Positions 1,788 to 32,963 of a stretch of 37,756 nt of DNA are shown in pieces. The stretch comes from Coemansia sp. RSA 922 (taxonomy: Eukaryota > Kickxellomycota > Kickxellomycetes > Kickxellales > Kickxellaceae), in assembly GCA_027577415.1 (NCBI GenBank), contig JANBQS010000090.1, positions 1 to 37,756 of the forward strand. The letters are read 5' to 3'. Numbering within the stretch: the first letter of the stretch is position 1; every line of letters starts with the position of its first letter. The notes under the pieces are model-generated. The model was not told the DNA's origin and made no database searches. It was given only the letters and a program-made list of their open reading frames with translations. A program made the translations under genes and the position numbers.

Positions 1788-3404
1788 ATGAAGGTGTCTG
1801 TACTATCTGTTCTTGCACTGGTTATTGCCAGTGCTTGCGCCGCACCACAGCCCGAGGTCAAGGATACCGTCGCTTCGTCGTCTAAATGCAGCAGCAAGTC
1901 CCTAGCTCGGAAGAGAAACCTGATCATGATGGTCTCTGACGGATTCGGCACAGCATCCGAGACTATGGCCCGCAACTACGTCCAGCAGATGGAGGGCAAG
2001 CCGTACGAGTGGCTCAGCGCCCTCGACGAACTTCTTGTTGGCACCTCACGCACCAAGTCGTCGGACTCGCTGGTCACTGACTCGGCAGCCGGCGCAACGG
2101 TCTTTAGCTGCGCCAAAAAGAGCTACAACGGCGCCATTGGCGTAACTCCTAACGAAAAGCCCTGTGGTACTGTTCTGGAAGCCGCAAAGATCAAGGGCTA
2201 CACAACTGCATTGGTCTCGACGGCTCGTATCACCCACGCCACACCGGCTGCGTTTGCCTCGCATGTGGTTCATCGCGATATGGAGGGACTTATTGCTCAG
2301 CAGCTAGTTGGAAACAACACTATCAGTAACAAGGTCGATCTCTTGTTTGGCGGTGGTTCGTGCAATTTCTTGCCCAACACCACCAAGGGCAGCTGTCGCA
2401 CTGACGATCTTGACGTGTGGGCGTTGGCCAAGAATAACGGTTACTCCGCATTTGAGTCCCGCGCGGCATTCGACGCACTCAAGCCCAAGACCAAGCTTCC
2501 TACGATCGGTCTGTTCACTTCAAGCCACATGTCGTACGAAATCGACCGCAACCCAGCTCTAGAGCCCTCTTTGGCCGAGATGACGGTCAAGGCGCTAGAG
2601 ATTCTGAGCGAGAACACGAAGCATTCGGACCAAGGTTTCTTCATCATGATTGAGGGTGCTCGTATTGACATGGCGGGTCACGATAACGACCCCGCAGCGC
2701 ATCTGCGCGACATTGTCCAGTACTGGGAGACTGTGGCCGCTGTTCGTCGTTTTGTCAACAATAATCGCAATACGGCGATGATTGGCACCTCTGACCACGA
2801 GACTGGCGGCTTGGCGCTAGGTATGGAACACGACTACTTCTGGCACCCAAAATACTTGAAGCCTGTCAAAAAGTCTTCCGAGGTTATCTGCCGCGAGCTT
2901 GCCAAGGTTGCCGTCGATGAGCGCGAGAGCTTTGTCCGCAAGACCGTCATTCCTTCGTATTTGGGCGTCTCCAACGTCACTGACGCTGATGTTGCCAGCG
3001 TGGTACGTGCCACTGCTAGCGGTTCGACCAAGTGCAAGCTTGCTGTGGGTCTTATCGTGTCTCGTCTTGCGCGTATTAGCTGGTCTACTGACGGTCACAG
3101 CGGTGTCGATGTGGGTTTGTACGCCTACGGTCGCGGCACAGAGAAGCTGCGCGGAAACTACGAGAACACCCAGGTGGGCGAATTCCTCAGAGACTACCTG
3201 CAAGTCGACCTTGCGCCTGTTACCAAGGGCTTGTCTAATCAGCTCACTGAGCAGCCTGGCTTCGAGTGGGCCCGCGCCCCTCCTTCCATTGTCACTCGGC
3301 GCAGTGCAGACAAGCACAGCTCTGGGTCGGCTGCTGCTGCCGCTCACCATGCCAAGCTTGATAGCTATCACCCGCTCCACTACCAAGACAGCCACAGCCA
3401 CTAG
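1788..3404 (+). CDS. Secreted alkaline phosphatase
   Basis: A 538-residue intronless gene. Alkaline phosphatases hydrolyse phosphate monoesters using two zincs and one magnesium. Visible motifs: first metal Asp in MMVSDGFG (D51); nucleophile in VTDSAAGAT (S99); THATPA around H150 and T152; metal ligands in MIEGARIDMAGHDND (E289, D294, H298); TSDHETGG (D336, H337); and TDGHSG (H437). The core is therefore complete. The N-terminus MKVSVLSVLALVIASACAAP is a signal peptide ending near A18/A19, unlike the internal membrane anchor of yeast vacuolar Pho8, so secretion or wall association is likely. The tail (about residues 505-538) is Ser-, Ala- and His-rich with no anchor signal. The length is close to the fungal norm. 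It stands alone, followed by an AATAAA-like run at 3418-3440. The 194-codon antisense frame inside it is a shadow. Confidence 0.93.
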   Translation: MKVSVLSVLALVIASACAAPQPEVKDTVASSSKCSSKSLARKRNLIMMVSDGFGTASETMARNYVQQMEGKPYEWLSALDELLVGTSRTKSSDSLVTDSAAGATVFSCAKKSYNGAIGVTPNEKPCGTVLEAAKIKGYTTALVSTARITHATPAAFASHVVHRDMEGLIAQQLVGNNTISNKVDLLFGGGSCNFLPNTTKGSCRTDDLDVWALAKNNGYSAFESRAAFDALKPKTKLPTIGLFTSSHMSYEIDRNPALEPSLAEMTVKALEILSENTKHSDQGFFIMIEGARIDMAGHDNDPAAHLRDIVQYWETVAAVRRFVNNNRNTAMIGTSDHETGGLALGMEHDYFWHPKYLKPVKKSSEVICRELAKVAVDERESFVRKTVIPSYLGVSNVTDADVASVVRATASGSTKCKLAVGLIVSRLARISWSTDGHSGVDVGLYAYGRGTEKLRGNYENTQVGEFLRDYLQVDLAPVTKGLSNQLTEQPGFEWARAPPSIVTRRSADKHSSGSAAAAAHHAKLDSYHPLHYQDSHSH

Positions 3405-4277: not shown

Positions 4278-5000
4278 CTATTCCGCGTCCCCGGAGTATG
4301 GAGCTGGCCCTGGGAGTGCAAATTTGCCGTTCGGCGTACCCTTGGGGAACAGAGGAGTCTTGTAGAGCTTCTTGTAGACATCAAGAATGCTCACTGGGTT
4401 CTTAAGTGGGGCAGTTGAATTGCTAGTAACCTCAAGCACCATGCAGTTAGAGTGGAAGCGAGGACCCGCAGTAAAATCTTCATAGTTGCTTTTCTGTGCA
4501 TCAGTAATGTCAATGATCTCCGTCCTAAGGTAGTACTTTCCTTTACCGATATACGCGGGGATGTTAAGGACGTAATAGCCTTTATCTAATATCTTAGATG
4601 TGCACCATTCGGCAGAGTCATCACTTCCCTCAAACTTGAACTCTTGGAACTTGCTCCACACCGGTCCAGTGCCCTTGCTTGCATATGGCGCAAGCCAGAA
4701 TGTGCATGGTCCATTTGGGTGGGCGTCCGTATAGGGCGAGGTGTTCTTCGTATCCCACACTATACCAATGTTTGTTCCTGCTTCAACAACAAGTGGCTTG
4801 ACTTTGGCAGACATACTAGATGTACGGCAGATCAGGTCCGTAGATTGAACGTCTATAACAGGCATTCTCGGGTGCAGTTCGGCTGGTAGTAGAGCATCGG
4901 CGGTCGCGGATTTCCCCTCGAGACCGACGCCTGTAACATGGGTCAGCGATTTGACGGACAGCGCCATGCATGACACAATTGTGATCAACGCGAGTTTCAT
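4278..5000 (-). CDS. Secreted AA9-like lytic polysaccharide monooxygenase homologue with altered active site
   Basis: A 240-residue secreted protein. A signal peptide (MKLALITIVSCMALSVKSLT) would leave His21 as the mature N-terminus, the first arm of the LPMO histidine brace. The order of blocks matches AA9 (old GH61): HVTGVGLEGK at the N-terminus; STDLICR, with C58 of the conserved disulfide; DAHPNGPCTFWLAPY, with H94 as second copper His; a Trp/Phe-rich middle; GKYYLRTEIIDI (AA9 GQYLLRxEII); and RFHSNCMVLEVT, with C186. In typical AA9 the last block is QFYxxC. Here Gln is Arg181 and the axial Tyr is His183, and the usual second-shell His after REIIALH is not evident. It may be a divergent LPMO or a copper-binding non-enzyme. 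The start is the ATG at 5000, because the longer frame relies on a TTG. A TATA box lies at 5132-5138. Confidence 0.68.
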   Translation of the reverse strand: MKLALITIVSCMALSVKSLTHVTGVGLEGKSATADALLPAELHPRMPVIDVQSTDLICRTSSMSAKVKPLVVEAGTNIGIVWDTKNTSPYTDAHPNGPCTFWLAPYASKGTGPVWSKFQEFKFEGSDDSAEWCTSKILDKGYYVLNIPAYIGKGKYYLRTEIIDITDAQKSNYEDFTAGPRFHSNCMVLEVTSNSTAPLKNPVSILDVYKKLYKTPLFPKGTPNGKFALPGPAPYSGDAE

Positions 5001-5131
5001 GATAGTCAAGAAAAAATAAATAAATAAAATGTGTAAAAAAAGAGTGCAAATGTAGTGGGTAAAACAAAAAAGTATTGGAGATGATGGAGAACAAAAAAAA
5101 AAAAGTAAACTGAGTGAGAATATGCCTTACA

Positions 5132-6293: not shown

Positions 6294-6299
6294 TATAAA
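6294..6299 (+). promoter_or_regulatory. TATA box of the repeat-peptide precursor gene
   Basis: GGGTATAAAAGAGG is a strong TATA box 89 bp before the ATG at 6383. Confidence 0.6.
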
Positions 6300-6382
6300 A
6301 GAGGACATTAGATCCGCTGCTCTTAGTACATACCACACACTCCAACTTCTTGCTCTCATTTTGCCATCTTTTAACATTAACT

Positions 6383-6625
6383 ATGAAATCGTCGTATACT
6401 TTTGTTGCCCTTGCTTGCGCAGCAGCAGCAGCCGCTGCTCCTGCTCCCCAAGTCGACCATGTCGGTAACTGGAAGGACACGCATGCTCGGCGTCAAGTTG
6501 ACCACGTTGGAGATTGGAAAGACACACACGGCCGTCGTCAAGTTGACCATGTCGGCGATTGGGAAGACAAGTTTGGTCGGCGTCAGGTAGACCATGTAGG
6601 CAACTGGAAAGAGACACACCCTTAA
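6383..6625 (+). CDS. Secreted precursor with four tandem peptides separated by Arg-Arg (Kex2-type repeat protein)
   Basis: An 80-residue protein. Residues 1-19 are a signal peptide (MKSSYTFVALACAAAAAAA), followed by PAP. The rest is four copies of a 13-residue peptide beginning QVDHVG: QVDHVGNWKDTHA-RR, QVDHVGDWKDTHG-RR, QVDHVGDWEDKFG-RR and QVDHVGNWKETHP-stop. Each of the first three is followed by a dibasic RR, the kind of site cut by Kex2-family proteases. The layout is that of yeast alpha-factor precursors and of fungal Kex2-processed repeat proteins. I know no match to this peptide. Each copy would start with Gln, which can form pyroglutamate. There is no dikaritin-type Tyr in the core and no tailoring enzyme next door. 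A strong TATA box supports expression. The ATG at 6383 is used because the longer frame begins at TTG. Confidence 0.85.
   Translation: MKSSYTFVALACAAAAAAAPAPQVDHVGNWKDTHARRQVDHVGDWKDTHGRRQVDHVGDWEDKFGRRQVDHVGNWKETHP
6449..6622 (+). repeat. Four in-frame 45-nt tandem repeats encoding the peptide units
   Basis: Units are 6449-6493, 6494-6538, 6539-6583 and 6584-6622 (the last lacks the RR codons). QVDHVG and the Trp are invariant in protein, yet their codons differ: Val1 is GTC, GTT, GTT and GTA, and Gly is GGT, GGA, GGC and GGC. This suggests old repeats held by purifying selection. Confidence 0.9.
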
Positions 6626-7188: not shown

Positions 7189-7800
7189 TTATTTCTTAAG
7201 AGACTCTTTTTCAATCTCTTGTACTCGCAGCTCCAACTCTAACAAGTATTCGTCTACCACTACTCCTTCATGGGAAAGTTGACGTAATGTATTACATAAC
7301 TTGTACAAGTACTCGCGGTTGCTTCCCGATGGTCCCTCTGCTCTAGCTATTACTTGAGCTGTATCCTCAATTGACGATTCCCCAGCAAACGACGGATTAC
7401 TACTAACACCCACGTATACCATTACATCGCTCAGCACGCCCTGTTTAGTGTAAACGCTGACAAATTCAATAGAGTATCCGTCCTTCTCTCTGTGGTCCAA
7501 CAGGGCTTTCACCTCGTGTTCTTTTCCCGATTCGACTTTGTAAGCTACGCCCCAGCACACTGACTCTATAGAGTCGGTGGCAGGTAATAGTGTGCATACT
7601 CGGCCTGGCTGGGAGGGCGTCCCACGGTGGTCGTGAGATTTTTGTAGAAAGGCTCGTTTGCGGCCATGGATATATCCAAATACTTGTGCTTCAATGGGAA
7701 AGTCTACTCGATACATTAGTGATCCGTAGCCGAACACCCACAGAGCGCGACCTTGTTCCCATGGCGTACCCAAGCCAACGTCTAGTATCGGAACCGTCAT
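7189..7800 (-). CDS. ChaC-type glutathione-specific gamma-glutamylcyclotransferase
   Basis: A 203-residue cytosolic enzyme. ChaC/Gcg1 proteins cleave glutathione to 5-oxoproline and Cys-Gly. The substrate-binding loop VFGYGSLMY lies at residues 22-30. GRVCTLLP and CWGVAYKV follow. The family LDxREKxGY block is LDHREKDGY, with the candidate catalytic Glu at 105. GPSGSNREYLYKL near residue 160 matches the C-terminal family block. The length is slightly short of yeast Gcg1 but the core is whole. It is intronless and uses the ATG at 7800. Its promoter must fit in the 135 bp to the upstream same-strand acyltransferase gene, which holds CT-rich tracts on the coding strand. Confidence 0.92.
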   Translation of the reverse strand: MTVPILDVGLGTPWEQGRALWVFGYGSLMYRVDFPIEAQVFGYIHGRKRAFLQKSHDHRGTPSQPGRVCTLLPATDSIESVCWGVAYKVESGKEHEVKALLDHREKDGYSIEFVSVYTKQGVLSDVMVYVGVSSNPSFAGESSIEDTAQVIARAEGPSGSNREYLYKLCNTLRQLSHEGVVVDEYLLELELRVQEIEKESLKK

Positions 7801-7935: not shown

Positions 7936-9369
7936 TCACTCGCTCACAAGACTGCACATCTTGTTCCACTGGGCGTCGGCTCTCAGTGCCGCCATTGCGG
8001 GTAGTTCTAGAGTGACATACAGATGTAACACCTCATACTCAGGCGGACCCGTACCAGTACTCCTAGTAGATGGCGGGCCGGGAAACACAATAATGTAGTT
8101 GGGTCTCGGGTTAAACGACCTTGCCATAGTTGGACGCCCAGCTCCGAAATCGGCGTCATAAATAGGAATCCTATTCATACACGACACTCCGACAGCCCTC
8201 TCGTTAGTATTAAGCGCCGTGAACCAAAAATGGCGCCATGGCTCCAACACTCCGTTCTGCGCGAGCAAAGTGTATGACTGATTCATCCAGTCCATTGCTC
8301 CTTGCAGATACTCGCCCGTATACTTGTCTACGCTCTGGCGGATACGCTTAGCAAGACGCGAAAACATGGCAGTGTCCGTTATTTCAGCGGCCGAGGCTTG
8401 ACACTCAGCGAGGATCAGCGGTGAGCCTAGACCGCGTAAGGGTAAGCCGAGTGGGCGACGCATGTCAAGAGATTGGAACATCGTCCATTCGCCAGCCTCG
8501 TATACTTGCGCTTCAGTGTTGGCGCGAGCAACGCACTGAGCGATAAAAGCAGCTATGACGTTGTTCGACGATACCCACTCGCCGTCTCTCAATACTCCGC
8601 TTGCCTCTACTTGCTCTTTGAGCTGCTGGATGCTGGCCACCGATATGGCGAATACACAGGCCTGGACTCCATCGGCTGTAGCTACCGATTTGCTGTTTGC
8701 CACAGATATCTCGGCGGGCGTCCTAGTAGCGTCGACCGAGATCTCTACCGGCCCATCGACTAATGGCTTGTTGGTATTGGTTACCAGCGACGTAGCATAC
8801 AATTCCAGATCGGCCGGCAACTCTACCGAGCCTAGGAGTCGGTTGCATCGAGCCCAATGCGCAATGAAACTAAACATGGCGTTACCGTCAAACGCCACAT
8901 GGTTCGTCATCGAGAACAGGGCTACTCCGCCATCTCCCAAGTAAGTAACCTTGACCATCAACATTGGTTTATCAAACCCGCGAGTAATGGATCCATCAGG
9001 AATAGCGATATCTAAACCATGCTGCTTAGCTACAGAGTATGAGAAACTCTGCGCTCGCAGTTGCGAATACGTCACCGATAGCCGCTGAAACTCTAGAGTA
9101 GGTGGGTTGCTGTGTAGCGGGTCGTAGTCAAGCGAGATGGTTAGGTCTGGATGGATCTTGAATTGACCGAATAACAGGGGGCAGCCATGTAGTGCAGAGA
9201 TAAGGGAGCGGCGTAGTCTGTCTTCGCTCATATTGGTGCGGGTCAAGGCGCTGGGCTCGTAGTACTGGATGCATGGCTTGTAGAACTGGAACATGAACTG
9301 CGTGTCGCCAGTAATACGCCTGCTCACTGCCTCCTTTGGCAGGAGTTCGCCCATGTCAATCTTTGCCAT
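7936..9369 (-). CDS. BAHD-type (transferase family PF02458-like) acyltransferase
   Basis: A 477-residue protein. BAHD enzymes move acyl groups from CoA thioesters to alcohols or amines. The catalytic HxxxD motif appears as NHVAFDGNAMF (H157, D161) and the structural DFGWG motif as DADFGAGRP near residue 420. The length fits the family (about 430-480). The substrate is unknown, and no neighbouring genes suggest a pathway. I start at the ATG at 9369 (MAKIDMGELLPKE), because the longer frame reads through a pyrimidine-rich leader with no ATG. A strong donor-like CAG/GTAAGT at about 9487 on the same strand followed by a pyrimidine tract suggests a 5' UTR intron. Confidence 0.83.
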   Translation of the reverse strand: MAKIDMGELLPKEAVSRRITGDTQFMFQFYKPCIQYYEPSALTRTNMSEDRLRRSLISALHGCPLLFGQFKIHPDLTISLDYDPLHSNPPTLEFQRLSVTYSQLRAQSFSYSVAKQHGLDIAIPDGSITRGFDKPMLMVKVTYLGDGGVALFSMTNHVAFDGNAMFSFIAHWARCNRLLGSVELPADLELYATSLVTNTNKPLVDGPVEISVDATRTPAEISVANSKSVATADGVQACVFAISVASIQQLKEQVEASGVLRDGEWVSSNNVIAAFIAQCVARANTEAQVYEAGEWTMFQSLDMRRPLGLPLRGLGSPLILAECQASAAEITDTAMFSRLAKRIRQSVDKYTGEYLQGAMDWMNQSYTLLAQNGVLEPWRHFWFTALNTNERAVGVSCMNRIPIYDADFGAGRPTMARSFNPRPNYIIVFPGPPSTRSTGTGPPEYEVLHLYVTLELPAMAALRADAQWNKMCSLVSE

Positions 9370-9913
9370 TAATAAGAGGATTTTTTTGTAAAAATAAAAA
9401 GAACAAATAGGTGAAAGTGAAAAAGAGAAGAGAGGTTGCTCTTGAAATGAATGGCAGAGAAGGAAAAAAAACCCTACTCCCACTTACCTGGGAATTGGTG
9501 GCGTTTCTCTTGTGCGACAATCTACGCCACAAGTGATCTGCACTTGGCAGATGTCTAAAAAAACGCACTTGTTCAATGCTAGGTCATAGACATGAACGGC
9601 TGCTTAAACAAACAGGCGTGCTTTACTTTATGAGCATATTTAATCTCTGGGCTAATCTCTCAACGTGTGTGTTTGCTGCGGCTGTCAGGGGCTTTGACAA
9701 TGTGCAACAAGTATTGGACATGCGCCCTTTCTCAGTGACCACATGCACTTTATAAAAAAGAAACAAGGATAGGCTTTGCTGTAGAATGTCTTTATAGTGG
9801 TGCCTTTTTGTTGCTGCAAAGTATTTTTGGTGACTTGATAAGGTGAAGCCCAAGGCACCTCGTTGGGGCCAAAAAAGGGTGGGGTATCCTTCCAGTCAGA
9901 GGCCACGGTGGCA
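9370..9913. other. Divergent intergenic region
   Basis: It holds the leader of the acyltransferase gene, with a CAG/GTAAGT donor-like site near 9487 on the minus strand and a pyrimidine tract after it, plus the upstream region of the small gene at 10024. No separate gene is supported. Confidence 0.45.
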
Positions 9914-15631: not shown

Positions 15632-18253
15632 TCAATATGCAGGGTTGAATGGGTCATACTCATCGACGTCTCCTCCATGAGCGTTCTCATGCGCAGGAGC
15701 GACCGGGTCGTACTCGTCGACGTCTGCTCCACGAGCGTTCACGTACTCAGGAGCGACCTGGTCGTACTCGTCGACCGGCGCATCGGGCAAGTCGATATAA
15801 TCCCCTTCGTTTTCATTGTGACGGCTTTGGTAGTCCCTAATGATAAAGTCGTCGGGCATGACAACAAGCTCCAGCAGGTTGCCGACATTATCGACGCCAC
15901 TCATCCTCGCATCCTCTAGACTATCGACGACGAGGACTCGGAACATCCTTTCAATCGCCCGATCATAGTCTGTATCGGGCGGGCCATCGAGGAAGTCGCG
16001 CCGCTGCTCGACCCAATAATACGAAGTCGACGGGTCATCTGGGTCCTCGTAGTCAGGAAGCCCGTCATCATTGTGGTCGCCGTCAGTCGCGCGAGGAAGG
16101 TCAGCAGGGTTCGCAATGCCGGGTCCCGGCTGTTGCTGAGGCGGAGCATGGACAGTGTCGCCTTCGATCGTGCCCTGGCCGGTAGGGTTCTCACCGACGA
16201 CAGCCTCAGAGTCAATGGCAGCGTGCTGCGTGGGGGCAGCGGTGCTCGCGCCTAATGTACTCTGTTGGTGTTGCTGCGCGGCGGCGTTGTTTGCCTCGGT
16301 CCATTTTCTCCGCAGCCGCCGGCGTTGCTCACGCGTTGGAATATCGTATGGCGCGGCCCTGTCCAACTGCCGCTGCTTGCGGAGATATGCCCTTAGAGTT
16401 GCATACCTGGCGGACCTGGCGACTACCCAGTCGGCGAAAGGGGGAATGATGTCACGTTCAACCCGGTCCAACTCGGCGATGGCATTCTGTTCAGTGGCGT
16501 CGACGTCCATGCCAGGGGTGCTATTAGCCGGCTGCGGTGCCGGTGCTTGCGCGAGGCCACCTGTAGCTGCGCCCTGATCGACATCCATACCAGGGGCGCC
16601 TTGCACCTGTTCCTGAACAGGTGCGCGAATGACGTCACCTACTACTGCACCCTGACCGGCAGGGTGCAACTCGGCAACAGCGTGCTGTCCAGGGGCCTCG
16701 ACGTCCATGCCAAATGTGATATTGGCCGGCTGCGGTGCGGGGGCATGCATGCCGTCGTAGACCGCTGGTCCGTTGTCGACGAATAAGTCCTGTCCAGAGG
16801 CTTCGATGTCCATGTCAACCGCGTCTGGCATTTGTTGCTGCCCGGCGGCGTGCACAATGCCGACCCCAATTGCATCCTGACCGACAGGGTACAGCTCAGC
16901 AACGATGTTTTGTGCGGGGACATCCACGTCCATGCCAATGGCTCTCTGAGCCAGTTGCGGCGCTGCGGTCTGAGTGAGAGCCGCCGTAGTAGTATCCGTA
17001 TTCGACGTCGCGGTCTGAGAAGGACCAGGCGGAGGCGGAGCTGCTAGTGGCGCTGTGTACCGAGGAGGAGTCACTGGAGTAGTATCCGTTGACGCCGCTG
17101 CAACCAGAGAGGGAGCTGGCGTCGTAGTACTACCCTCGGGTGTCGCTATGTCCTGAGGAGGAGCCACTGGAGTAGTATCCGCTGTTGACGTCGCGGTCTG
17201 AGTATGAGCCGCCGTAGAAATATCTGCTGTCGATGTCGCGGTCTGAGAAGGACCAGATGGAGTGGTATCCACTAGTGGCGTTGCGGTCAGGGATGACGTA
17301 GGCGGGGTACGAGCAGCAGGGGGCCTGTCGCCGGGGAGCCATCCGCGAGAGGGCTTGTCGCCTGCAAGACAACCTGTGACAGGGCCGCTGTTGGTACCGA
17401 CGTGTCGCATGAGGGTGGCGACCCTCTTGCGAAAGGTGTTATGAGCCCGCTGCTGTGTGGGGACATGCGCCATATTGTTGAGAACTGACGCGTTTCTTAG
17501 CAGCTGCCGACGCCGCCCACGTTTTGAATTGGGATAGGGGTCAAGGCAGCTTGGTCGCCACTCCTTCCAACGAAAAGCCTCTTCCACGTCTGACTGGGAC
17601 AGGATGTCAGTAGCGCGCTTGCGCTTGGCTGGCGTCGAGCAACCAACCGAATCGTTGTTGTATGGCGCTGTTTCAACTCCACTGCTTCCATCCGAACTCG
17701 CAGTCTGCGCAGTGGCCGAGTCGCCAAAGAGCGGCACGGGAACTCTGCGTGACCCGAACCCAGTACTTCTGAAAGTCGGGGCGGGACTCTTGACTGGAGG
17801 TGTTCTTGTCGAGATCATAAACTGAAATAGTCTGTACCCCGGCGAGCACAAGTCACATACCCCAGACGACCGAAGATAGCAGGTGCAGAGCTCGCGTGGC
17901 GCAGATCTGTCCGGCTCGGGCGCTGGAGTGTCACTAGGCTCCTCCGGCTCCTCTGGCTCCTCTGGCTCCTCTGGCTGCTCAGGCTGCTCAGGCTCCTCCG
18001 GCTGCTCAGGCTCGGGTGCTGGAGTGACACTAAGGACGTCCGGCTCCTCCTGCTTCTCAGGCTGTTCAAGTGGAGCCTGGTGTGAAGAAGGAATACGCGC
18101 ATGCCGACGTCGCATAGTGCTATCGCCCATCAGATTGGATCTTCTATCCGAGACACTGCCGAGCTGTGTCTGGCGAGTGGGCGGGCCCGCGCTCATGCGT
18201 GAAAGCACAAAAAACAGGCAAAACAAGGGAACTACAATAAACCACTCATACAT
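15632..18253 (-). CDS. Repeat-rich, GC-rich protein with N-terminal hydrophobic anchor, function unknown
   Basis: 873 residues from the ATG at 18253; the longer frame only adds translated poly-T. Order: a hydrophobic segment (FIVVPLFCLFFVL, residues 6-18) that may be an anchor or signal; an R/S-rich patch; an EP repeat (EEPEEPEEPEEP) near 85-107; a CTC...CDLC cluster at 123-136; a basic KRKR patch near 210; SKRGRRRQLLR; Pro/Thr-rich repeats (TATSTADTTPVAPPQ type); five GMDV[DE] units of about 25-40 residues; a basic helix (REQRRRLRRKW); and three 18-residue units starting VDEYD at the C-terminus. The region is much richer in G and C than its flanks. No family was recognised. The NLS-like patch plus hydrophobic N-terminus would allow a nuclear-envelope role, but that is a guess. 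The stop is probably premature (see 15388-15631). Confidence 0.6.
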   Translation of the reverse strand: MYEWFIVVPLFCLFFVLSRMSAGPPTRQTQLGSVSDRRSNLMGDSTMRRRHARIPSSHQAPLEQPEKQEEPDVLSVTPAPEPEQPEEPEQPEQPEEPEEPEEPEEPSDTPAPEPDRSAPRELCTCYLRSSGVCDLCSPGYRLFQFMISTRTPPVKSPAPTFRSTGFGSRRVPVPLFGDSATAQTASSDGSSGVETAPYNNDSVGCSTPAKRKRATDILSQSDVEEAFRWKEWRPSCLDPYPNSKRGRRRQLLRNASVLNNMAHVPTQQRAHNTFRKRVATLMRHVGTNSGPVTGCLAGDKPSRGWLPGDRPPAARTPPTSSLTATPLVDTTPSGPSQTATSTADISTAAHTQTATSTADTTPVAPPQDIATPEGSTTTPAPSLVAAASTDTTPVTPPRYTAPLAAPPPPGPSQTATSNTDTTTAALTQTAAPQLAQRAIGMDVDVPAQNIVAELYPVGQDAIGVGIVHAAGQQQMPDAVDMDIEASGQDLFVDNGPAVYDGMHAPAPQPANITFGMDVEAPGQHAVAELHPAGQGAVVGDVIRAPVQEQVQGAPGMDVDQGAATGGLAQAPAPQPANSTPGMDVDATEQNAIAELDRVERDIIPPFADWVVARSARYATLRAYLRKQRQLDRAAPYDIPTREQRRRLRRKWTEANNAAAQQHQQSTLGASTAAPTQHAAIDSEAVVGENPTGQGTIEGDTVHAPPQQQPGPGIANPADLPRATDGDHNDDGLPDYEDPDDPSTSYYWVEQRRDFLDGPPDTDYDRAIERMFRVLVVDSLEDARMSGVDNVGNLLELVVMPDDFIIRDYQSRHNENEGDYIDLPDAPVDEYDQVAPEYVNARGADVDEYDPVAPAHENAHGGDVDEYDPFNPAY

Positions 18254-19061
18254 TGTGAATTCCAAAAAAAAAAAAAAAAAAAAAGTGAAGTAAAATGCAA
18301 AAAGACATGTGAGGAGTAACAAGAAAATGAGGACACACGGCTCCTCCTTTTATTCTCTCTCTGCTGCGGCTGTTGCGCCGCTGGAGGGACATGGAGGGAG
18401 AGTATCGCTACCAGTGTGACTTGGCGGGTGGCTTTTTTGTGTAGATCGTAATGAGCTGAACCGCCGATTCGGGGCGAGGGGACAAGGGTGGCGGCTTACC
18501 AATAGCCACGCGTGTGGGGCAGACAACGCTCAGGAACAATGGGCGGTAGAATATACTTTCAGGGACTTTGGATGCCAGCTATCGCCAATTCCCCTTTCCT
18601 GCAAAAAATAGGTTTGGAGAGCTGTCGAAATAGCAAAGTTGCTCCTTTGACGAGAATACCTGCACATCTCCTTTAATTTAAAGTGTTCTGATTTGCGCTG
18701 TTGGGCAATCCTCTCACACATAAACCCCGACATCATGCAGGCCAAATGCAAACTAGATAGCATGCTCTTCGCATAGGCAATTCTTTGCCGCTAACATAAA
18801 TCCCATGTCATTCTGTAGCATCCGTACACGTATCAATGGCAATGCTTCTCACAGCCTACTTGTCCATAAAAGACCACAGTCTGCCAATTCATAGGTCTAA
18901 TAGACCACTCCAATCGGTCTTAATCCAATCTTCTCAATTGCCAACCTTGATCGCTAGGCAAACAAACACTATCTTTGATGACGATGTCAGCGATAAACAA
19001 CTTTATGTCTCATAGTCCATTTTTATTTTCCCTTTTTCAATTCAAGAGTAATTTCAGGGCA
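18254..19061. other. Intergenic / promoter region
   Basis: A 20-base A run at about 18264-18283 and a TATA-like GAGAATAAAAGGAGG on the minus strand near 18345-18359 lie upstream of the repeat-rich gene. A 77-codon minus frame (18530-18763) has an ATG but no family signature and is not called. Confidence 0.4.
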
Positions 19062-24720: not shown

Positions 24721-24807
24721 TTGACAAAAGACTGTTGCTGTCAATAAACACTTTTTCTCTTCTGCTTTCAATTGTATATTTATATTCTTATTTGAATTTC
24801 AGAAGCT

Positions 24808-26511
24808 ATGGTCACCCCTTCGCCACTTCAAACGCTTCCGCTCCATGTCGTTAAACTTATAGTCAACCACGCTGTGAATTGTAGTCGCTTGGTGAATAGT
24901 GGGATCGAAGCCAACTCTAACGAATGGAATACGTTGCTGAAGCCGTTTTTATACACTTGCCGCGGTTTCCGCGCCATTGCCTACCTGCTCTACTGCAGCC
25001 GCTCGAAGTTGGAGCTTGCTGATCCGTCTACATACGCTGAGATGCGTCCATGCCTGTTTGAGCTCGGGTATCGTATGAACAACAATCTCGGGTACCCTAC
25101 ACACCACTTGGTTAAGGAGTTGGACATCGAGTTGGACGAAGAAGGTATCTACTCTGGAAATGCATTGAAGAAGCTGTCGCGTGTGCCATACAAGGGCTGT
25201 GCATTTCCGCTGGCGCGCAAGATCACATTCCTTATTGTCGCAGAGAAGGACATTAGGACTAGGCCTTGGAGGATCAAGACCAATATTGACGCGTTTGTGC
25301 AGCGAATCAAGGAATTGGCGCCGTTGGCCGACGACTTTACGATTCAGCCTAATGACCTTGTCCATCCGGAAGAAGGCGCCAGTGAGCATATTGACTACCT
25401 TATCACGCGGCTCCTCCAGCTAGCTAAGCGGGTTGACTATTGCAGCTTTTACTCCTCGCATAAGCCAGTGAGGATGGATTGGGAGTGGATCCACGACCTA
25501 GTGCACATCAAGTATGCACTTGCGAGCCAGGACTATTCGTTTATAATGTTGGTGCAACAGAATGCGCCAACGCTGTAGTCCCTGTCGATTGGGACAGATC
25601 ATTACGAGTGCCTTCGTGTTCTTATCCAGTACGACGACGGTACCTATGTGTCGTATCCACAGTTGCTTGCGCTCGAATTGTTACTGAGTCCGGATGACGA
25701 GGATCCAGCGCTTGTCGTTTTTGAAGGAGCCGTTCCATTCCCCAGTCTTCGGCGGCTAGAGTTTATTAATCCGTATCCGTTTGGCGACGACACGCCGTTC
25801 AGAGGCAACTCGGCTACACTTGAAATCCTGAAACTAACGGTGGACCGTTTGGCAGCCCAGGTGCTTATCAAGCACAACGTATTTACGCTGGTCAGCCACC
25901 CCAACCTGTGGTGGGTGAGTACCAGGTATTCAGATGCCGTTGAGCCGGATATGATTGGAACTGCCGCGGAACCTATTCAGTTCGCTCTAAACATTGGTCC
26001 CGGAGCGCCTGTGCGAGAGATCGGCGTATCTCTGACTAGCTCGGAGTTGGTATCTAAATTATCTGCAGCCAGACAACATACCTGTATCCGCGATCTGACG
26101 CTCTTGTGGAAGAACTTGGAGCTCTGGGACGTCATTGCGTTGTTAAAGGCGCTTCCGCTTCTGAGAAATTTGGAATCGTCCTACCCGAAACTTGGTGCAC
26201 TTCCTGCGGGTGTCACACGGGCCCAGCTTCCTGAGTACTTGCGTTCGAAACATTATCCACTGGGCAGGTGATTCCGGTTTTGGAAGTTTTTGTCCTGCCC
26301 ACCTGAGGCCCTGGCTGAGACTGTTAACTGTGTAGTTTTGGTAGCGCTACTGTGTCCCTACTTTACCCACGTCAGTGAGAGTGGTGGTATGCGGAGCAAT
26401 TTTTTACTGATGTTTGGAAAAGCTGCTCTATCAGATACGTATAAGAAATATGTGCAACGGCTGATGCACTTGGTGCGCTTTGAAATACAGGATTATCAAC
26501 TAGGCCAATAA
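24808..26511 (+). pseudogene. F-box/LRR-like family gene with two in-frame stops
   Basis: One frame of 567 codons runs from MVTPSPLQTLPLHVVKLIVNH to QDYQLGQ with no frameshift. It is cut by TAG at 25576-25578 (after QQNAPTL, where paralogues have Q) and TGA at 26269-26271 (YPLGR-stop-FRFW, paralogue GKRFRCW). It shows the full family order: F-box-like N-terminus; SGNALKKLSRVPYKGCAFPLAR; GAVPFPSLRRLEF; PFGDDTPFRGNSATLEIL; HNVFTLVSHPNLWWV; NIGPGAPVREIGV; LPLLRNL; ELPEYLRSKHYPLG-type end; LVALLCPYFTHV. CAG to TAG and CGA to TGA would both be single C-to-T changes. It is recently dead; stop-codon readthrough is the alternative. Confidence 0.82.
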
Positions 26512-26639
26512 GTTTATCAATAATGAGATCTAGTTGTATCTGGTTCAGACTATCTTATGCGATTCCAGCATCCATTCAAAACGATATTAAGTTAAACCAA
26601 TGCTGTAAATTTGTAATATATTAACGCAAAACGACAAGT

Positions 26640-28661
26640 TTAGCAATTTTTCCATCCATTAAATAGCAAGCGCCTCAGGCGTGGCGCATCTTGACTGAAC
26701 TCGGGCTCGGCGATTTTGTCCTGCATCACCTTCATGAATGGCTTGCGATAGTCTCTATACAATGCCGCATAGTCAAAGTTGGGGCAAGCAAGCGCCAGCA
26801 GCAAAACACATGTTGCTATTTCTTCATAGTCGCGCTCAGGCCCACCACAAACATTCCAGCAGCGGAACCTCTTGCCCATCGGCGCATAGTTGGAGCGGAC
26901 ATATTCGGGAAGTTCAGCAATGGACAAGCTCTGAGGAAGTTCGCCTAGGACTGGGGCATTAGTTGTAAGATCCGATAGAAGTGGGAGCGACTCAACCAAT
27001 GTAATAGCTTGCCAGATCGACAAGGGCATATAAGGCAAAGACAAGATCTGAATACAGCCATGGTTCTTTAGAATCAAGAGCGCAAGATTACAATCCCCAG
27101 GATACTTGTCCAAGTCAACTATCTGTCGCACCGATGCGCCGGGCGCGATACTCACAACAAACTTTAGATACTCGGCAACTGTAGCAAAGATATTTGGTAT
27201 ATAGCCCCTACCCGTATCAAGCTTGACGCATTGGAGGTTCGGATGGCTGGTAGGCGTGAATACTTTGTATTTCTTGAGCTTCGAAACGGTCTTTGGAAGC
27301 AGGCTTAGTTCCAGGTACTCCAATGTAGCGGCGTTGCCCCGGAAAAGTATATCGTCACCAAAAGGATAATCCAATAGCAGGCTCAGGCGTAATAGTCGGG
27401 GAAATGGCACAATGTCTTTGATGACAGCCATTCGCGTTGGCCATGTATCACGGTGCGAATGAAGCATCAAGGTGTGCAGGCATGGGTATTCCAGGTAGCT
27501 TCTGCCGGCACGATTTATCACCAAGTTGGTTAGCTCCATATCGCCCACATCAAGATCCAAAAACTGCAAGGTTTTCGTACTACGATGTATCAACGGCCAA
27601 GTACTGTAAAAGTCCGAGTCCAATGAGCACTCCAAATGAACTAGGTCTCGGATTGGCTCCAGATCCGAATAAACGAGCATAGAATCGTCTCTACCCGCGA
27701 TCACAGTGCGCCTCTCGACGATATCAAAGAGCTGCTGGACTAGATCTAAGGTATGGAAATTGCAGTGTAAGAGCATTCCCACAGCATCCCCGTGGAGAGG
27801 ATACACATAGATTTCGCTGACCGCAGGCACCATTTGCTTGATCCACTGAACAAGCGCTGCTATGTTAGCAGCAGTATCCGGAGGGTAGACATAGCGGGTC
27901 TTTGGCACGCCGTCATTGTGGCACTCCGCCTCGAAGTCAGAGTGGTCCTCTAATTCCCAGTCATTGCCGTTCTCAGCCTCCCAGCCGCCATTGTCACTCT
28001 CTACCTCCCAGCCGCCATTGTCACTCTCTACCTCCCAGTCGCTGCTGTCACTCTCTAATTCCCAGTCGTCATAGTCTTCCTCGAATGCCCAGTTATTGCC
28101 GCCCTCTAATGCCCAGTCGACGGCATTCTCTGGCTCCCGGTCGTTTTCAAGTACTGGCTCCGGGTCGTTGTCTTGCTCTGGCTCCCGATCGTTGCCATGA
28201 TCTGGTTCCTGATCATAGTAACCCTCTTCGTTGTCACTGGTAAGACAAATACAAAGCTTGCGAACCAGAGGAAAAGAGCAGCCTTCATAGGGCGCATCAG
28301 ACAGCAGCTGTAGCGCCTTTCCTGAGAACACAGCTTTTATGTCTAACTTGACCCAAAGCTCCTTGGCCAAAGGATGCGTAGAACAGCCGAGCTCTTTGAA
28401 GAGTGTCGGCCACGAACAGAGTAAGGCTTCAGCTCTATCTCGATCGTTATCCAAGGTTAGTCTATATACTCGGCAGAAGCGCTCGCGTACAAAGGCGCGG
28501 AAATTGTGGCACACCCAGAGCAGCGGCATCTGAAGTACCTTGTACTCGTCCGAGTCAGTAGTGACACCATCAAACCGCAAGCGACTGCTATGAGCAACGT
28601 GATCGACAATCAGCTTGACGACGTGGTTCGGAAGGAGCTGAAACGCCGACAGGTTATCCAT
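26640..28661 (-). CDS. Intact F-box/LRR-like family protein with acidic Trp-rich insert
   Basis: 673 residues. The N-terminus, FQLLPNHVVKLIVDHVAHSS...LQMPLLWVCHNFRAFV, resembles an F-box (LPxxVxxxIxxxL then LxVCxxxR), the domain that docks substrate receptors to SCF ubiquitin ligases. The rest looks like a leucine-rich repeat-like solenoid: SGKALQLLSDAPYEGCSFPL; IVPFPRLLRLSLLLDYPFGDD; FRGNAATLEYLEL; TPTSHPNLQCVKL; SIAPGASVRQI; ESLPLLSDL; ELPEYVRSNYAPMGKRFRCW; VLLLALACPNFDYAAL; DAPRLRRLL. An acidic insert (about 142-252) separates the F-box-like part from the solenoid. It is convergent with the dead copy at 24808-26511. The F-box identity is inferred; the family itself is certain from the paralogues here. 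Confidence 0.82.
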   Translation of the reverse strand: MDNLSAFQLLPNHVVKLIVDHVAHSSRLRFDGVTTDSDEYKVLQMPLLWVCHNFRAFVRERFCRVYRLTLDNDRDRAEALLCSWPTLFKELGCSTHPLAKELWVKLDIKAVFSGKALQLLSDAPYEGCSFPLVRKLCICLTSDNEEGYYDQEPDHGNDREPEQDNDPEPVLENDREPENAVDWALEGGNNWAFEEDYDDWELESDSSDWEVESDNGGWEVESDNGGWEAENGNDWELEDHSDFEAECHNDGVPKTRYVYPPDTAANIAALVQWIKQMVPAVSEIYVYPLHGDAVGMLLHCNFHTLDLVQQLFDIVERRTVIAGRDDSMLVYSDLEPIRDLVHLECSLDSDFYSTWPLIHRSTKTLQFLDLDVGDMELTNLVINRAGRSYLEYPCLHTLMLHSHRDTWPTRMAVIKDIVPFPRLLRLSLLLDYPFGDDILFRGNAATLEYLELSLLPKTVSKLKKYKVFTPTSHPNLQCVKLDTGRGYIPNIFATVAEYLKFVVSIAPGASVRQIVDLDKYPGDCNLALLILKNHGCIQILSLPYMPLSIWQAITLVESLPLLSDLTTNAPVLGELPQSLSIAELPEYVRSNYAPMGKRFRCWNVCGGPERDYEEIATCVLLLALACPNFDYAALYRDYRKPFMKVMQDKIAEPEFSQDAPRLRRLLFNGWKNC
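27906..28238 (-). repeat. Acidic tandem-repeat insert inside the intact F-box/LRR-like gene
   Basis: It encodes about 110 residues rich in D, E, N and W: first EPDHGNDREPEQDNDPEP-type units, then 9-residue units such as ESDNGGWEV. Two 27-nt units at 27988-28014 and 28015-28041 are almost identical. Paralogues at 24808 and 31252 lack it. Confidence 0.85.
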
Positions 28662-29192
28662 TGACGTCGACTGGTTTTAGGAGCAGGGAAATAGATGAAT
28701 TAAATAGCGTAAACAAATCGTGAAAGAGAGAAAGAGGGAGGAGAGAAGAGAGAAAGAGAAAGAGGGAAGAGGGATCAGGCGACAATGTCGAAATGCTATG
28801 TAAATCCTAAGTGGCAAAAAAGTATTGGACTGATTGGATCGCTTCAAAACCGCAGTATTATTATTTTGTTGATTTTTTTTATTCAGCGCTCAGTCTTGTT
28901 CACCATTCCGCCCAAGCGTCTACTACAAATGTGTGCATGGATCCGCTCATGTGGATATCATCCAACAACCAAAATGCAACAGCGAGAGAGTTACTTTATT
29001 CCGTGCACGAGACTCGTCGTAGCTGATTTTTGCCAGCACCAGAGTAGTTTTGCTAATAGTTGAAAATGTATAAGCAGAAAGCCAATTTTAAAAAAACCCC
29101 CAGGAATAAGCGGTTCAAATACTGGCACACACACGTCAAAAGTCTGCAAAAAAACACATGTTATTACGGCTTATTTATATAAAGTTCATATC
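28662..29192. other. Intergenic, with a GA-rich leader tract
   Basis: 28720-28772 is a GA-rich run (AGAGAAAGAG type), a pyrimidine tract on the coding strand just before the gene ending at 28661. The remainder is the 3' side of the next minus-strand gene. A 92-codon plus frame at 28785 is not supported by anything else. Confidence 0.45.
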
Positions 29193-30863
29193 CTAAATAA
29201 GACGCTGGAGAGACTTGGCGTATGGCTTGAAGGGCTCATTATATGTAGCCCAAGCTACTTCACGGCTAAACGCTTTACGCAACCCAAGTGGAAGATCGAT
29301 GTGGACAAAGCATGGACACACGACAGCAATCTGCATAACGACAATTGCGATCCTTTCAGCTGATATCTTAGCAGAACACATCGCGCGCAGTTTTCTAAAC
29401 TGTATACTAGGCGAAAAGAACTTGGCGTAAAGTCTGCTCGGAAGCTCGCTTGCCGGGATCGCCTCAATAGTTGACACTGAGCCTTTTACCCGACAGGAAA
29501 GGCTGACGAGGCTTGGGAGCGCCGAAATAATTTCGATTATGTTAATGCTATCGAACAATAGATCTCCAAAATGCAAATTCTGAAGGACCGCTGTACTCGG
29601 CGCAGTCTTGATAGCCTCGTACAGCTGCAGGTCGGTCGTGTCATTAGTCAAGTGTAGTGCCAACGTCACCTCCAACATGTGATGAACTTGCTGTACAATC
29701 GGCGAATCGGTTAGCGTCGCTAGATACGCCTTATCCACGTGAGTGAACAAGTCAATATAGATCGAGTTCATCCTTGTAACACCTTGGCGCTCGAGTATAG
29801 CATACCCGCCCAATGCGTTTTTGGCTAGAGCGCAGAACGGCAAACACAAGTGCTTTAGCGTCTTTCCATTGCCCCTAAATAGCGCGTCGTCGACAAATGG
29901 ATATACGCCGCTAACAACCAACGTCGATAGAGCGGGGAATAGCACCAATTCCTTGGTCACTGTCCACGCAGAGTTGTACTCATTGTAAGCAATGACCAGG
30001 GTAAGCGATGTCAAACTGGTGTAGACTGTCAAAGGCCTAGGATGACAGTAGACTAAGCTAATCCAGCCGCGTATGCTGCAAACGCAGATTTTAAGCTCCT
30101 TTAAAGTACTCGCATTGCGGTAAGCCAGAGCGCCCTCTAAAACACAGTCGGCTTGTGATTCAACAACAAGGCTCGTCAGTCCGGATATAGCATGTAGGTC
30201 TAGACTTAGCTGATGGATATATGGCTTTGAGCGAATGCACACACTAGACACTTCTTGACTCAGTTCCGATACCAAAGTGTCGTATAGCTCATAGCAGCTA
30301 TAGAGCTGGTTATTGATACTGGTAGAGTTTATCTCAATAACCACGCTAGCCACGGCTGGAGCCAGTCGACGAATGGAGCGAGCAAAGCTAACCGCATCAC
30401 TGTCGCTCAATACTGGTGTACGAGTAGTAACTGCGGAGTTTCGGCCACTCAGCATCACCACAAGACTAGTCGCAGATGGAAACAACATATCCATGTACTG
30501 TGGCGTGTCGATGACTGTGCGAAATGCATCTTCGCAAGCGTCGTTCCAAAGCTTGGCCTTCACCACGACGCGCTTGACAAAGCTAGGTTTATAGAACTGC
30601 GGATACAAGAATCCCTCAGGCCACGCGGGGTATTTTACCTCAATGGCTCTGCTAGCAAAAGTAAATGTAATTACACAGCTGTCGCAGATAGAAGTGAGCG
30701 CTGCTATATGCCAGTGCTGGCTGACAAGAAGAAGTGGAGCAAGGACTATCTTTTTCTCGTTAAAGTTGGAGTCAGTGGAGCCTCTTGGACGCCCCTCCAG
30801 ATACTCAACAACCATGTTGACTAATATCATGGGCAGAGTTTGCATCGGAGAGAGTGAAGACAT
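29193..30863 (-). CDS. Intact F-box/LRR-like protein, divergent subfamily
   Basis: 556 residues, ATG at 30863. F-box-like start: MQTLPMILVNMVVEYLEG, then VLAPLLLVSQHWHIAAL, which matches the L-VS-x-x-W pattern of F-boxes better than its neighbours do. The solenoid keeps the family landmarks in altered form: ELVLFPALSTLVVSGVYPFVDD, ALFRGNGKTLKHL, SALPSLVSL, ASELPSRLYAKFFSP, VVMQIAVVCPCFVHID and PYAKSLQRLI. It has no acidic insert. It reads as a second subfamily, of a kind I recall as very abundant in Coemansia-like genomes. A TATA box (TATAAAAGGG) lies 109 bp upstream. Target unknown. Confidence 0.82.
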   Translation of the reverse strand: MSSLSPMQTLPMILVNMVVEYLEGRPRGSTDSNFNEKKIVLAPLLLVSQHWHIAALTSICDSCVITFTFASRAIEVKYPAWPEGFLYPQFYKPSFVKRVVVKAKLWNDACEDAFRTVIDTPQYMDMLFPSATSLVVMLSGRNSAVTTRTPVLSDSDAVSFARSIRRLAPAVASVVIEINSTSINNQLYSCYELYDTLVSELSQEVSSVCIRSKPYIHQLSLDLHAISGLTSLVVESQADCVLEGALAYRNASTLKELKICVCSIRGWISLVYCHPRPLTVYTSLTSLTLVIAYNEYNSAWTVTKELVLFPALSTLVVSGVYPFVDDALFRGNGKTLKHLCLPFCALAKNALGGYAILERQGVTRMNSIYIDLFTHVDKAYLATLTDSPIVQQVHHMLEVTLALHLTNDTTDLQLYEAIKTAPSTAVLQNLHFGDLLFDSINIIEIISALPSLVSLSCRVKGSVSTIEAIPASELPSRLYAKFFSPSIQFRKLRAMCSAKISAERIAIVVMQIAVVCPCFVHIDLPLGLRKAFSREVAWATYNEPFKPYAKSLQRLI

Positions 30864-30965
30864 GATGACAATAAAGACAGGAAAGTGATAAAGGTAAGCA
30901 AATAAATCCAGTGGTTAGTACCGAAGAAGAGAAAAAATTATGTGCTGCGGCTGACGCGAGTTCCC

Positions 30966-30972
30966 TTTTATA
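30966..30972 (-). promoter_or_regulatory. TATA box of the gene at 29193-30863
   Basis: GTGTATAAAAGGGAAC on the minus strand, 109 bp before the ATG. The shared upstream region (30973-31251) also has two copies of GTCATTAATTTA-type sequence. Confidence 0.55.
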
Positions 30973-31251
30973 CACGATCCAAGCCACATTAACTAGTCAT
31001 TAATTTATTACAGGAATTAGTCGACCCTGTCTACGTTTAAAATATGCGTGCTTCGTGTATTAGTTGTCATTAATTTAATGTGGTCTATAATCAAACTCAG
31101 GCTTTGACCGCTGATTCCCGTAATAGGAAAGCGCAGGGCGAGCTGCTCCACATCAAATTGCTGCGGATGCACATTTTCTTTTTTCTCGTCAGTCCTTTAT
31201 CTCCCAATTATTTGTATTGTTTTTTTACAGCTATTGCTTGAACAACGCGGA

Positions 31252-32963
31252 ATGCCTTCTCTATCGCTGCTACAAACCCTTCCCCCTCACGCCGTCGAGA
31301 TGATAGTTGATCATGTCGCTGACAACATCCGCCTTGCGTCAAGCAATGACCGCAACAGGCGCTCAGAAGAGTACTATAGGCTGCTGATGCCATTGCTCTG
31401 GGTCAGTCGCAACCTCCGCGCTGTTGTTCTTTTGAACATTTTCAAGCATTGTGTAGTAGTCTTTGACAGCCATATGGGTAGAGCCACTGCGCATACAATC
31501 CCGAATACACTCTTCTTATACCGACTCTGCTGTCTTTTCCGCGGTCTGGCCAAAGAACTGACGATATCAGTAAGCCTGGGTACTATTTACTCTGGCAAAG
31601 CTCTTGCCGCATTGTCCCACGAGCCGTTAAACGGCTGTTCGTTTCCATTGGCGTGCACGCTCAAAATAGATTTTACTCGTGGTTGGGATAACAAGGATGC
31701 CACAGCTCTGCCACAAGACGCCGAGGATAACATTAGCGCGTTTGTAGGAAGGGTTCGGCAAATAGCGCCAAAGGTCAAGTTGGTCAAGGCGTCGTGTCAA
31801 TTCCACTCATGGGATAATGCAACCACGTCATCTCTTCTTTTTGAGAGTTTGGCCACGCAGCTTATCCAGCTTGTTCATCGGGTCGAACTCACGTCGGGCT
31901 TTAGCAATGCTTTTCGGCCTCTGCAGGAGGATGCTATCCGCAACCTCGCGCTCGTACACATCAACTCATTTATGGACTGCGAGCAAGGCATACGGCTGAT
32001 ACGACTGAACGCACCCACTCTGCAGTACTTGAGCATCAGTTCTAATACGGGCACCGATTTCGCCGGAATTATCCAAGACGTTGACGGAGGTTTTATCGAG
32101 TATCCATGTTTGCACACATTAATTCTAAAGTGGTATGCAATTGGGACCACGTTATGGCAATACGATTTTACTGGTGCAGTACCGTTTCCTAGCATTCGGC
32201 GGCTAGTCTGTGGTGGCGATTACCCATTCGGCGATGACCTGGTACTATTCCGAGGCAACGCGGCTACTCTCGAACTTCTACAGCTGACTATGACTCGTAA
32301 ATTGGCGGTAGCCCTTCTTCGGCATACCGTATTTACGCCCACTAGCCACCCAAAGCTACAGAGTGTTATTTTGAAGCCGCGTCTAGAAGGTAGACTAGTT
32401 AATTATGCCGACGACCCAGAAATTATCCGACTCATGCTGGATACCGACTCATGCTGGATATTGCACCAGGTGCTTCCGTAAGAAAGATCTCCGAATGGCC
32501 ACTCGCCCAAGCGTCTTATCCGCCAGTGCTCTCTCTACTTAGCAACTACGCTAGTCTCCAAGTTCTGGCTCTTCCCGATATACGCCTGTCGATCTAGGAC
32601 GCCATGGCCATGATACAGTCTCTTCCGCTACTCTCGGACCTACACGCCAAGGCTCCGACGCTTGACCCAATTCCCGCTGGTGCCACAAAACGCACACTTG
32701 TCAAGTATGTGACCTCTAACTACTCGCCAATGGGTTCACGGTTCCGGTGTTGGCATTTTGGGGATGAGCGTTTAAAAGAATTGAAGGGCGCAGTGATACC
32801 ATTTTTGCTGCTAGCGTTGGCGTGCCCCAACTTTGACTATGCTGCCATAGTTCACTACCATCGTGAAATGTTTGCCGAGCTTTTGGAAAAGCCCATTGAT
32901 ATGGCAACCTATAAAAAACATGCACCTCGCTTGCGCCGCTTGCTGTATCGTAGACAAGACTAG
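31252..32963 (+). pseudogene. F-box/LRR-like family gene broken by a 17-bp duplication and a stop
   Basis: From the ATG at 31252 (MPSLSLLQTLPPHAVEMIVDHV; the longer frame starts at TTG) the family order is complete: SGKALAALSHEPLNGCSFPLA, GAVPFPSIRRLV, YPFGDDLVLFRGNAATLELLQL, TPTSHPKLQSVIL. The frame then shifts at an exact 17-bp tandem duplication (32427-32460) and ends in TAA soon after. In the shifted frame the protein continues as DIAPGASVRKISEWP, LQVLALPDIRLSI, a TAG at 32595-32597 where paralogues have W, then MIQSLPLLSDL, YSPMGSRFRCWHF, LLLALACPNFDYAA and HAPRLRRLL. So there are two lesions, and otherwise it is nearly complete. Confidence 0.87.
32427..32460 (+). repeat. Exact 17-bp tandem duplication that breaks the frame
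   Basis: CCGACTCATGCTGGATA at 32427-32443 is repeated without change at 32444-32460. With a single copy, the flanking codons would encode RLMLDIAPGASV, as paralogues do. Confidence 0.93.

Follow-up and report, generated by a model that had tools for sequence, protein, structure and literature searches.

A short gene on the forward strand of a Coemansia sp. RSA 922 contig (6383-6625 of JANBQS010000090.1, whose 37,756 nucleotides are here called the window) most probably encodes a KEX2-processed repeat protein (KEP), the precursor of processed peptides; judging from sequence, we place the probability of this reading at roughly 0.87. That the gene is a real and selected precursor rests on its sequence, its copies in the genome, the constraint between them, and the presence of genes for processing enzymes. 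As far as searched, the peptide itself is new, while the precursor type is already published.

Layout, copies and surroundings of the precursor gene

The open reading frame specifies 80 amino acids and a TAA stop, and its translation opens with a signal-peptide-like start that ends in APAP (6383-6448). Four units of 13 codons each follow, with three Arg-Arg pairs between them and the consensus QVDHVG(N/D)W(K/E)(D/E)xxx in the window. The encoded order is MKSSYTFVALACAAAAAAAPAP and then QVDHVGNWKDTHA-RR-QVDHVGDWKDTHG-RR-QVDHVGDWEDKFG-RR-QVDHVGNWKETHP, all on the forward strand. Units 1 to 4 occupy 6449-6487 (N type), 6494-6532 (D type), 6539-6577 (D type, penultimate), and 6584-6622 (N type, with the stop codon directly after), and the Arg-Arg pairs, each a predicted Kex2 site, occupy 6488-6493, 6533-6538, and 6578-6583. 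The window units begin with Gln right after Arg-Arg, and AP stands before unit 1 only. Tandem Repeats Finder independently detected the array, with scores of 174 at period 45 and 216 at period 90. An earlier, sequence-only reading of the window had described this Kex2-type layout of a signal peptide and four 13-residue units with Arg-Arg between them, and the open reading frame bears it out.

We searched the genome (20.4 Mb in 960 contigs, the window being contig C90; matches at E ≤ 10) and recovered six copies of the precursor, with E-values from 2.5e-53 to 2.7e-20. The copies fall at three loci, each present on two collinear contigs: A on C90 and C85, B on C561 and C356, and C on C776 and C927. 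Collinearity was judged on the compared parts of the contigs (the initial 20,000 of the 38,739 bases in C85), and DNA identity within pairs is mostly 89-95%, with a single stretch of the A pair as low as 80%. Allelism, a hybrid with both halves present, or a mixture of two strains in the sample could each account for the paired contigs. Four of the six copies are intact: A1, which is the window gene, A2, B1, and C1. In B2, a 38-base deletion takes most of unit 1 and the frame is lost, and in C2 a TGA replaces the Trp codon of the last unit. A degenerate DNA pattern for QVDHV matched the genome 30 times, compared with 5 times for the reversed control; 21 of these matches lie inside the six copies, and around the remaining 9 we detected no remainder of the unit and no array in the frames examined (up to 400 residues of the long ones).

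A search of 5.8 billion proteins for relatives outside this genome yielded two, P0001 and P0002, with 68 and 66% identity, respectively, and the same layout; a longer query gave P0001 only. The closest named relative is P0002, the hypothetical protein GGI00_001643 of Coemansia sp. RSA 2681, which has the signal-like start, the units, and the Arg-Arg junctions in common with the window gene but differs in having three units, all of the D type. P0001 has 79 residues and four units, the first of which has no dibasic site. Homologues in relatives of this early-diverging fungus, for which the sequence-only reading had proposed a search, are represented by P0002. Because only two database relatives turned up, the distribution of the family appears narrow, which weighs against the reading, although gene prediction easily misses short open reading frames.

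For comparison of the units we aligned the 22 units of six precursors, leaving out the damaged B2 and C2. All six precursors have a hydrophobic, Ala-rich stretch after MK and an AP directly before the first Gln, and in all six the penultimate unit ends in EDKFG before Arg-Arg (EDRLG-RR in the damaged C2). The description of a 13-residue repeat with invariant QVDHVG and Trp is accurate for all four window units. Across the alignment, the length is kept in 21 of 22 units, the exception being unit 1 of P0001, and Trp is present in all 22, but QVDHVG is found in 18, and its invariance does not extend to the family. Pfam scans of the window precursor, P0001, and P0002 gave nothing above the cut-off; the best sub-threshold match, DUF4148 to residues 1-39 of P0002, scored 22.2 bits against a cut-off of 27.

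In the window, Pfam identified an alkaline phosphatase (1788-3401, +), an AA9 monooxygenase (4281-5009, -), a ChaC protein (7192-7800, -), and a transferase-family protein (7939-9483, -), while five other open reading frames scanned had no Pfam match. The genes around the precursor appear to carry no sign of a RiPP cluster. Several large, related-looking open reading frames at window 24796-32481 and at L013 2133-8055 are F-box/leucine-rich-repeat-like by eye (three were scanned, with no Pfam match), and such frames also adjoin locus C. A 905-residue open reading frame at 15635-18349 (-), which to the eye has much Pro, Glu, Ala, and Thr, contains tandem repeats and has no Pfam match. At loci B and C, the shared DNA extends past the peptide gene and includes open reading frames at L009 1874-2974 (-) and L013 9194-10000 (-), which we take to resemble tyrosine-recombinase proteins of mobile elements; a Pfam scan of the L009 frame gave no match. 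The copying of the peptide gene may have involved a mobile element.

Unit types, constraint and promoter

In A1, A2, B1, and C1, position 7 is Asn in the first and last units and Asp in the inner ones. The genome appears to keep two predicted product types apart: the array ends carry the N type (QVDHVGNWK...), and the interior carries the D type (QVDHVGDW...), whose most conserved form is QVDHVGDWEDKFG. For all 15 units of these four copies, the nearest unit in another locus, scored by nucleotide differences, shares the position class (first, inner, or last), with one tie at A2 unit 2. Because nearest units match by position class, the unit types were probably in this order before the loci split; homogenisation of units within each array is unsupported by the same comparison. 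The alternation is not universal, since all four units of P0001 carry Asn and all three units of P0002 carry Asp.

Between A1 and A2 we found 12 synonymous changes over 53.5 sites and 2 nonsynonymous changes over 186.5 sites (dN/dS 0.041; P 3e-7 in a Fisher test with rounded counts), which supports the earlier view that the mature peptide is the selected product. In units 2-4, only synonymous changes, 2 in all, separate B1 from B2. Constraint is weaker for the locus C pair, in which one copy is damaged (dN 0.052, dS 0.171, with the TGA codon omitted), and this weaker constraint, together with the damage to two of the six copies, counts against the reading as a processed precursor. We also compared 11 units of A1, B1, and C1 with each other, a check that the sequence-only reading had put forward. 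Pooled pairwise values were pS 0.86 and pN 0.038 for residues 1-8 (pN/pS 0.044), and pS 0.89 and pN 0.36 for residues 9-13 (pN/pS 0.40). The head of the peptide is therefore its most tightly kept part. These values confirm the many synonymous differences between repeats that had been reported.

Four genes around the precursor on the C90/C85 pair gave dN/dS values of 0.031 for the alkaline phosphatase, 0.54 for AA9, 0.15 for ChaC, and 0.044 for the transferase-family gene. The AA9 monooxygenase gene (4281-5009, -), with 26 nonsynonymous and 14 synonymous changes, lies well above the three other neighbours. Pooled, the four neighbours have 99 of 1027 synonymous sites changed, and the changed synonymous share of the peptide gene (12/53.5; window 6383-6622 against L007 6917-7156) is 2.3 times as high (Fisher P 0.009). 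It is possible that units have been exchanged between loci, given this raised synonymous share and the likeness of A1 unit 3 to C1 unit 2, which differ at 1 of 39 bases.

Alignment of the upstream regions of the six copies revealed a TATA box (TATAAAA; 6294-6300, +) 89 bases upstream of the ATG and a TCCGCTG element (6313-6319, +) 19 bases past the TATA start. Both are retained in all six copies, with TCCGCTG 17 or 19 bases beyond the start of the TATA box, although the upstream DNA of locus A has strongly diverged from that of B and C, and the latter two resemble each other more. Common descent from an ancestral copy could by itself explain this layout. Genome-wide, the pattern TATAAA-N10-18-TCCGCTG had 9 matches, six of them the six copies, compared with 14 for the reversed control, and as such it is therefore not enriched in the genome. 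Downstream of the other three matches there was no KEP-like open reading frame within the stretch examined. One of these three, on C172, stands before a 184-residue open reading frame with a signal-like start.

The KEP class and predicted processing

Most KEPs have, to our knowledge, no assigned function. Among the published criteria for the class are cuts at KR or RR (or KK), at least four fragments, a motif repeated at least three times, and repeats that cover 15% or more of the protein (PMC6339444). The window precursor has four units and three Arg-Arg pairs, its units account for 52 of 80 residues, and a kexin, another criterion, is encoded in the same genome; for the N-terminal signal peptide, a criterion judged by SignalP, the precursor offers a putative signal in its hydrophobic, Ala-rich start. 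In common with the KEPs of Le Marquer et al. (2019, PMC6339444) and Umemura (2020, PMC7329392), it has an N-terminal signal-like start, at least three near-identical short units, KR/RR sites between units, and repeats that occupy most of the protein. According to the latter source, all 16 Zoopagomycota strains surveyed have KEPs (185 in total), and according to the former, the role of the KEPs of early-diverging fungi remains to be determined. The sequence-only reading had stated that it knew no match. This still applies to the peptide, as QVDHVG was not found in a full-text literature search, although supplementary tables could list it, but it does not apply to the precursor type, which belongs to the published KEP class. 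Coemansia together with Kex2 and peptide was likewise not found by full-text search. Coemansia and QVDH are absent from the main text of PMC7329392 available to us, whose supplementary lists may hold the peptide, and Coemansia is absent from that of PMC6339444, in a comparison confined to main text.

Genes for each step of the expected maturation were sought in the genome. A single P-domain match was found, in a protein that carries Peptidase_S8 and P domains and has Kexin 2id4 as its best PDB match (E 9.3e-145). DPP IV-type peptidases are located on C681, where both domains are present and DPP4 structures are matched, and on C204; C311 gave a third match, a weak one. S10 carboxypeptidases, the family of Kex1, gave 10 genome matches. 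Every step of the expected processing chain (kexin, DPP IV-type, S10) has a candidate gene in the genome. In the maturation that we propose, the N-terminal signal would take the precursor into the secretory pathway, kexin would cleave after every Arg-Arg, and an S10 (Kex1-type) carboxypeptidase would take off the two Arg. A dipeptidyl peptidase would probably trim the AP dipeptide or dipeptides preceding the first Gln; since this AP fits Ste13-type trimming, unit 1 would also start at Gln. The four units would then be released as separate linear 13-residue peptides beginning with Gln, and this N-terminal Gln would likely cyclise to pyroglutamate.

Six of the peptides have GRAVY values of -0.47 to -1.67 and net charges of 0 to -3, and being hydrophilic and not positively charged, they are not typical cationic or membrane-active peptides. 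A membrane-lytic, Rep1-like, or cationic antimicrobial peptide was dropped as a candidate on hydropathy and charge. Given the strict constraint on residues 1-8, the looser tail, and the hydrophilic, non-cationic character of the peptides, we lean slightly toward predicted soluble extracellular signals bound by a receptor or other partner. The QVDHVGNW start is reminiscent of the adipokinetic-hormone pattern; mimicry of the insect hormone was set aside, as positions 3 to 5 depart from its known consensus.

Competing readings and a possible mating signal

A tentative alternative, which we consider doubtful, is a secreted effector or interference peptide directed at competitors, hosts, or grazers. 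In Coprinopsis cinerea, six KEP gene knockouts had no apparent phenotype, and the authors propose a role towards the biotic environment (PMC9769878); the narrow distribution of relatives is consistent with such a role, but locus A is strongly constrained and not diversifying, and the hydrophilic character and net charge of 0 to -3 also argue against it. It is highly improbable that the gene encodes a dikaritin-type RiPP precursor with units cyclised by UstYa-family oxidases. Precursors of dikaritins share this layout (same source), but the window units have no Tyr, the Pfam-matched neighbours are the alkaline phosphatase, AA9, ChaC, and transferase-family genes, and UstYa was matched neither in the genome, in a search with no positive control, nor among the nine window open reading frames scanned. 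We give as little credence to C-terminal amidation with Gly before Arg-Arg as its signal. Such a Gly is present at 11 of the 15 junctions of the six aligned precursors (Ala at the other 4), including the penultimate unit in all six, but the last unit ends in Pro (5/6) or Ser (1/6), Ala stands before Arg-Arg in unit 1 of A1, A2, and B1, the PHM domains PF01082 and PF03712 were unmatched in the genome (again with no positive control), and fungi as a whole are said to lack PAM (PMC6529398). Damage to B2 and C2 speaks for a chance repeat or a decaying, non-functional array; this explanation is scarcely credible, as it is contradicted by the dN/dS of 0.041 at locus A, and homologues exist outside the genome with unit length and promoter conserved.

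The product of budding yeast alpha-factor is also 13 residues long, and ascomycete alpha-factor precursors share the layout (signal, repeats, dibasic sites) and the kexin, carboxypeptidase, and dipeptidyl peptidase chain. We know of no likeness between the window peptide and alpha-factor sequences, which weighs against a mating pheromone of this Kickxellalean fungus that would be the functional counterpart of alpha-factor, a reading that we hold to be unlikely. In alpha-type pheromones, Ste13 (XA/XP) dipeptides follow the Kex2 sites (PMC6339444), whereas in the window precursor such a dipeptide stands before unit 1 only and none lies between units. STE2 and STE3 models found no match in the genome, in searches with no positive control in which STE2 was silent in control genomes too; the receptor check suggested by the sequence-only reading thus came back empty, and its candidate mating pheromone gains no support beyond the layout. 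On the other side, the genome has kexin, DPP IV-type, and S10 genes, as well as 7tm_3 receptors that are partly clustered. The 7tm_3 search gave 12 matches, 9 of them above the cut-off, with four on C174 and three on C645, and the four open frames that we read are 480-535 residues long; these matches indicate that some seven-helix receptors are detectable in this way, not that STE2 or STE3 would be. The 7tm_3-type receptors are clustered on C174 and C645 (L050-L054, L057). The mating genetics of Zoopagomycota are called not well understood (PMC10386755), and the pheromones of early-diverging fungi, Mucoromycotina and Blastocladiomycota excepted, largely unknown (PMC6339444). Mating is one possibility among several.

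Returning to the KEX2-processed repeat protein, the gene matters because one small family combines a defined predicted product with strong purifying selection, two unit types in fixed positions, promoter elements laid out alike, and processing-chain genes in the genome, and the 13-mer is open to direct synthesis and testing. More speculatively, and in our estimation quite improbably, QVDHVG(N/D)W... may serve as a self-recognition or mating signal of Kickxellales, with N and D ligands from one precursor and a receptor outside STE2/STE3, such as the clustered 7tm_3 proteins. If this were true, QVDHVG(N/D)W... would be the first peptide pheromone of Zoopagomycota.
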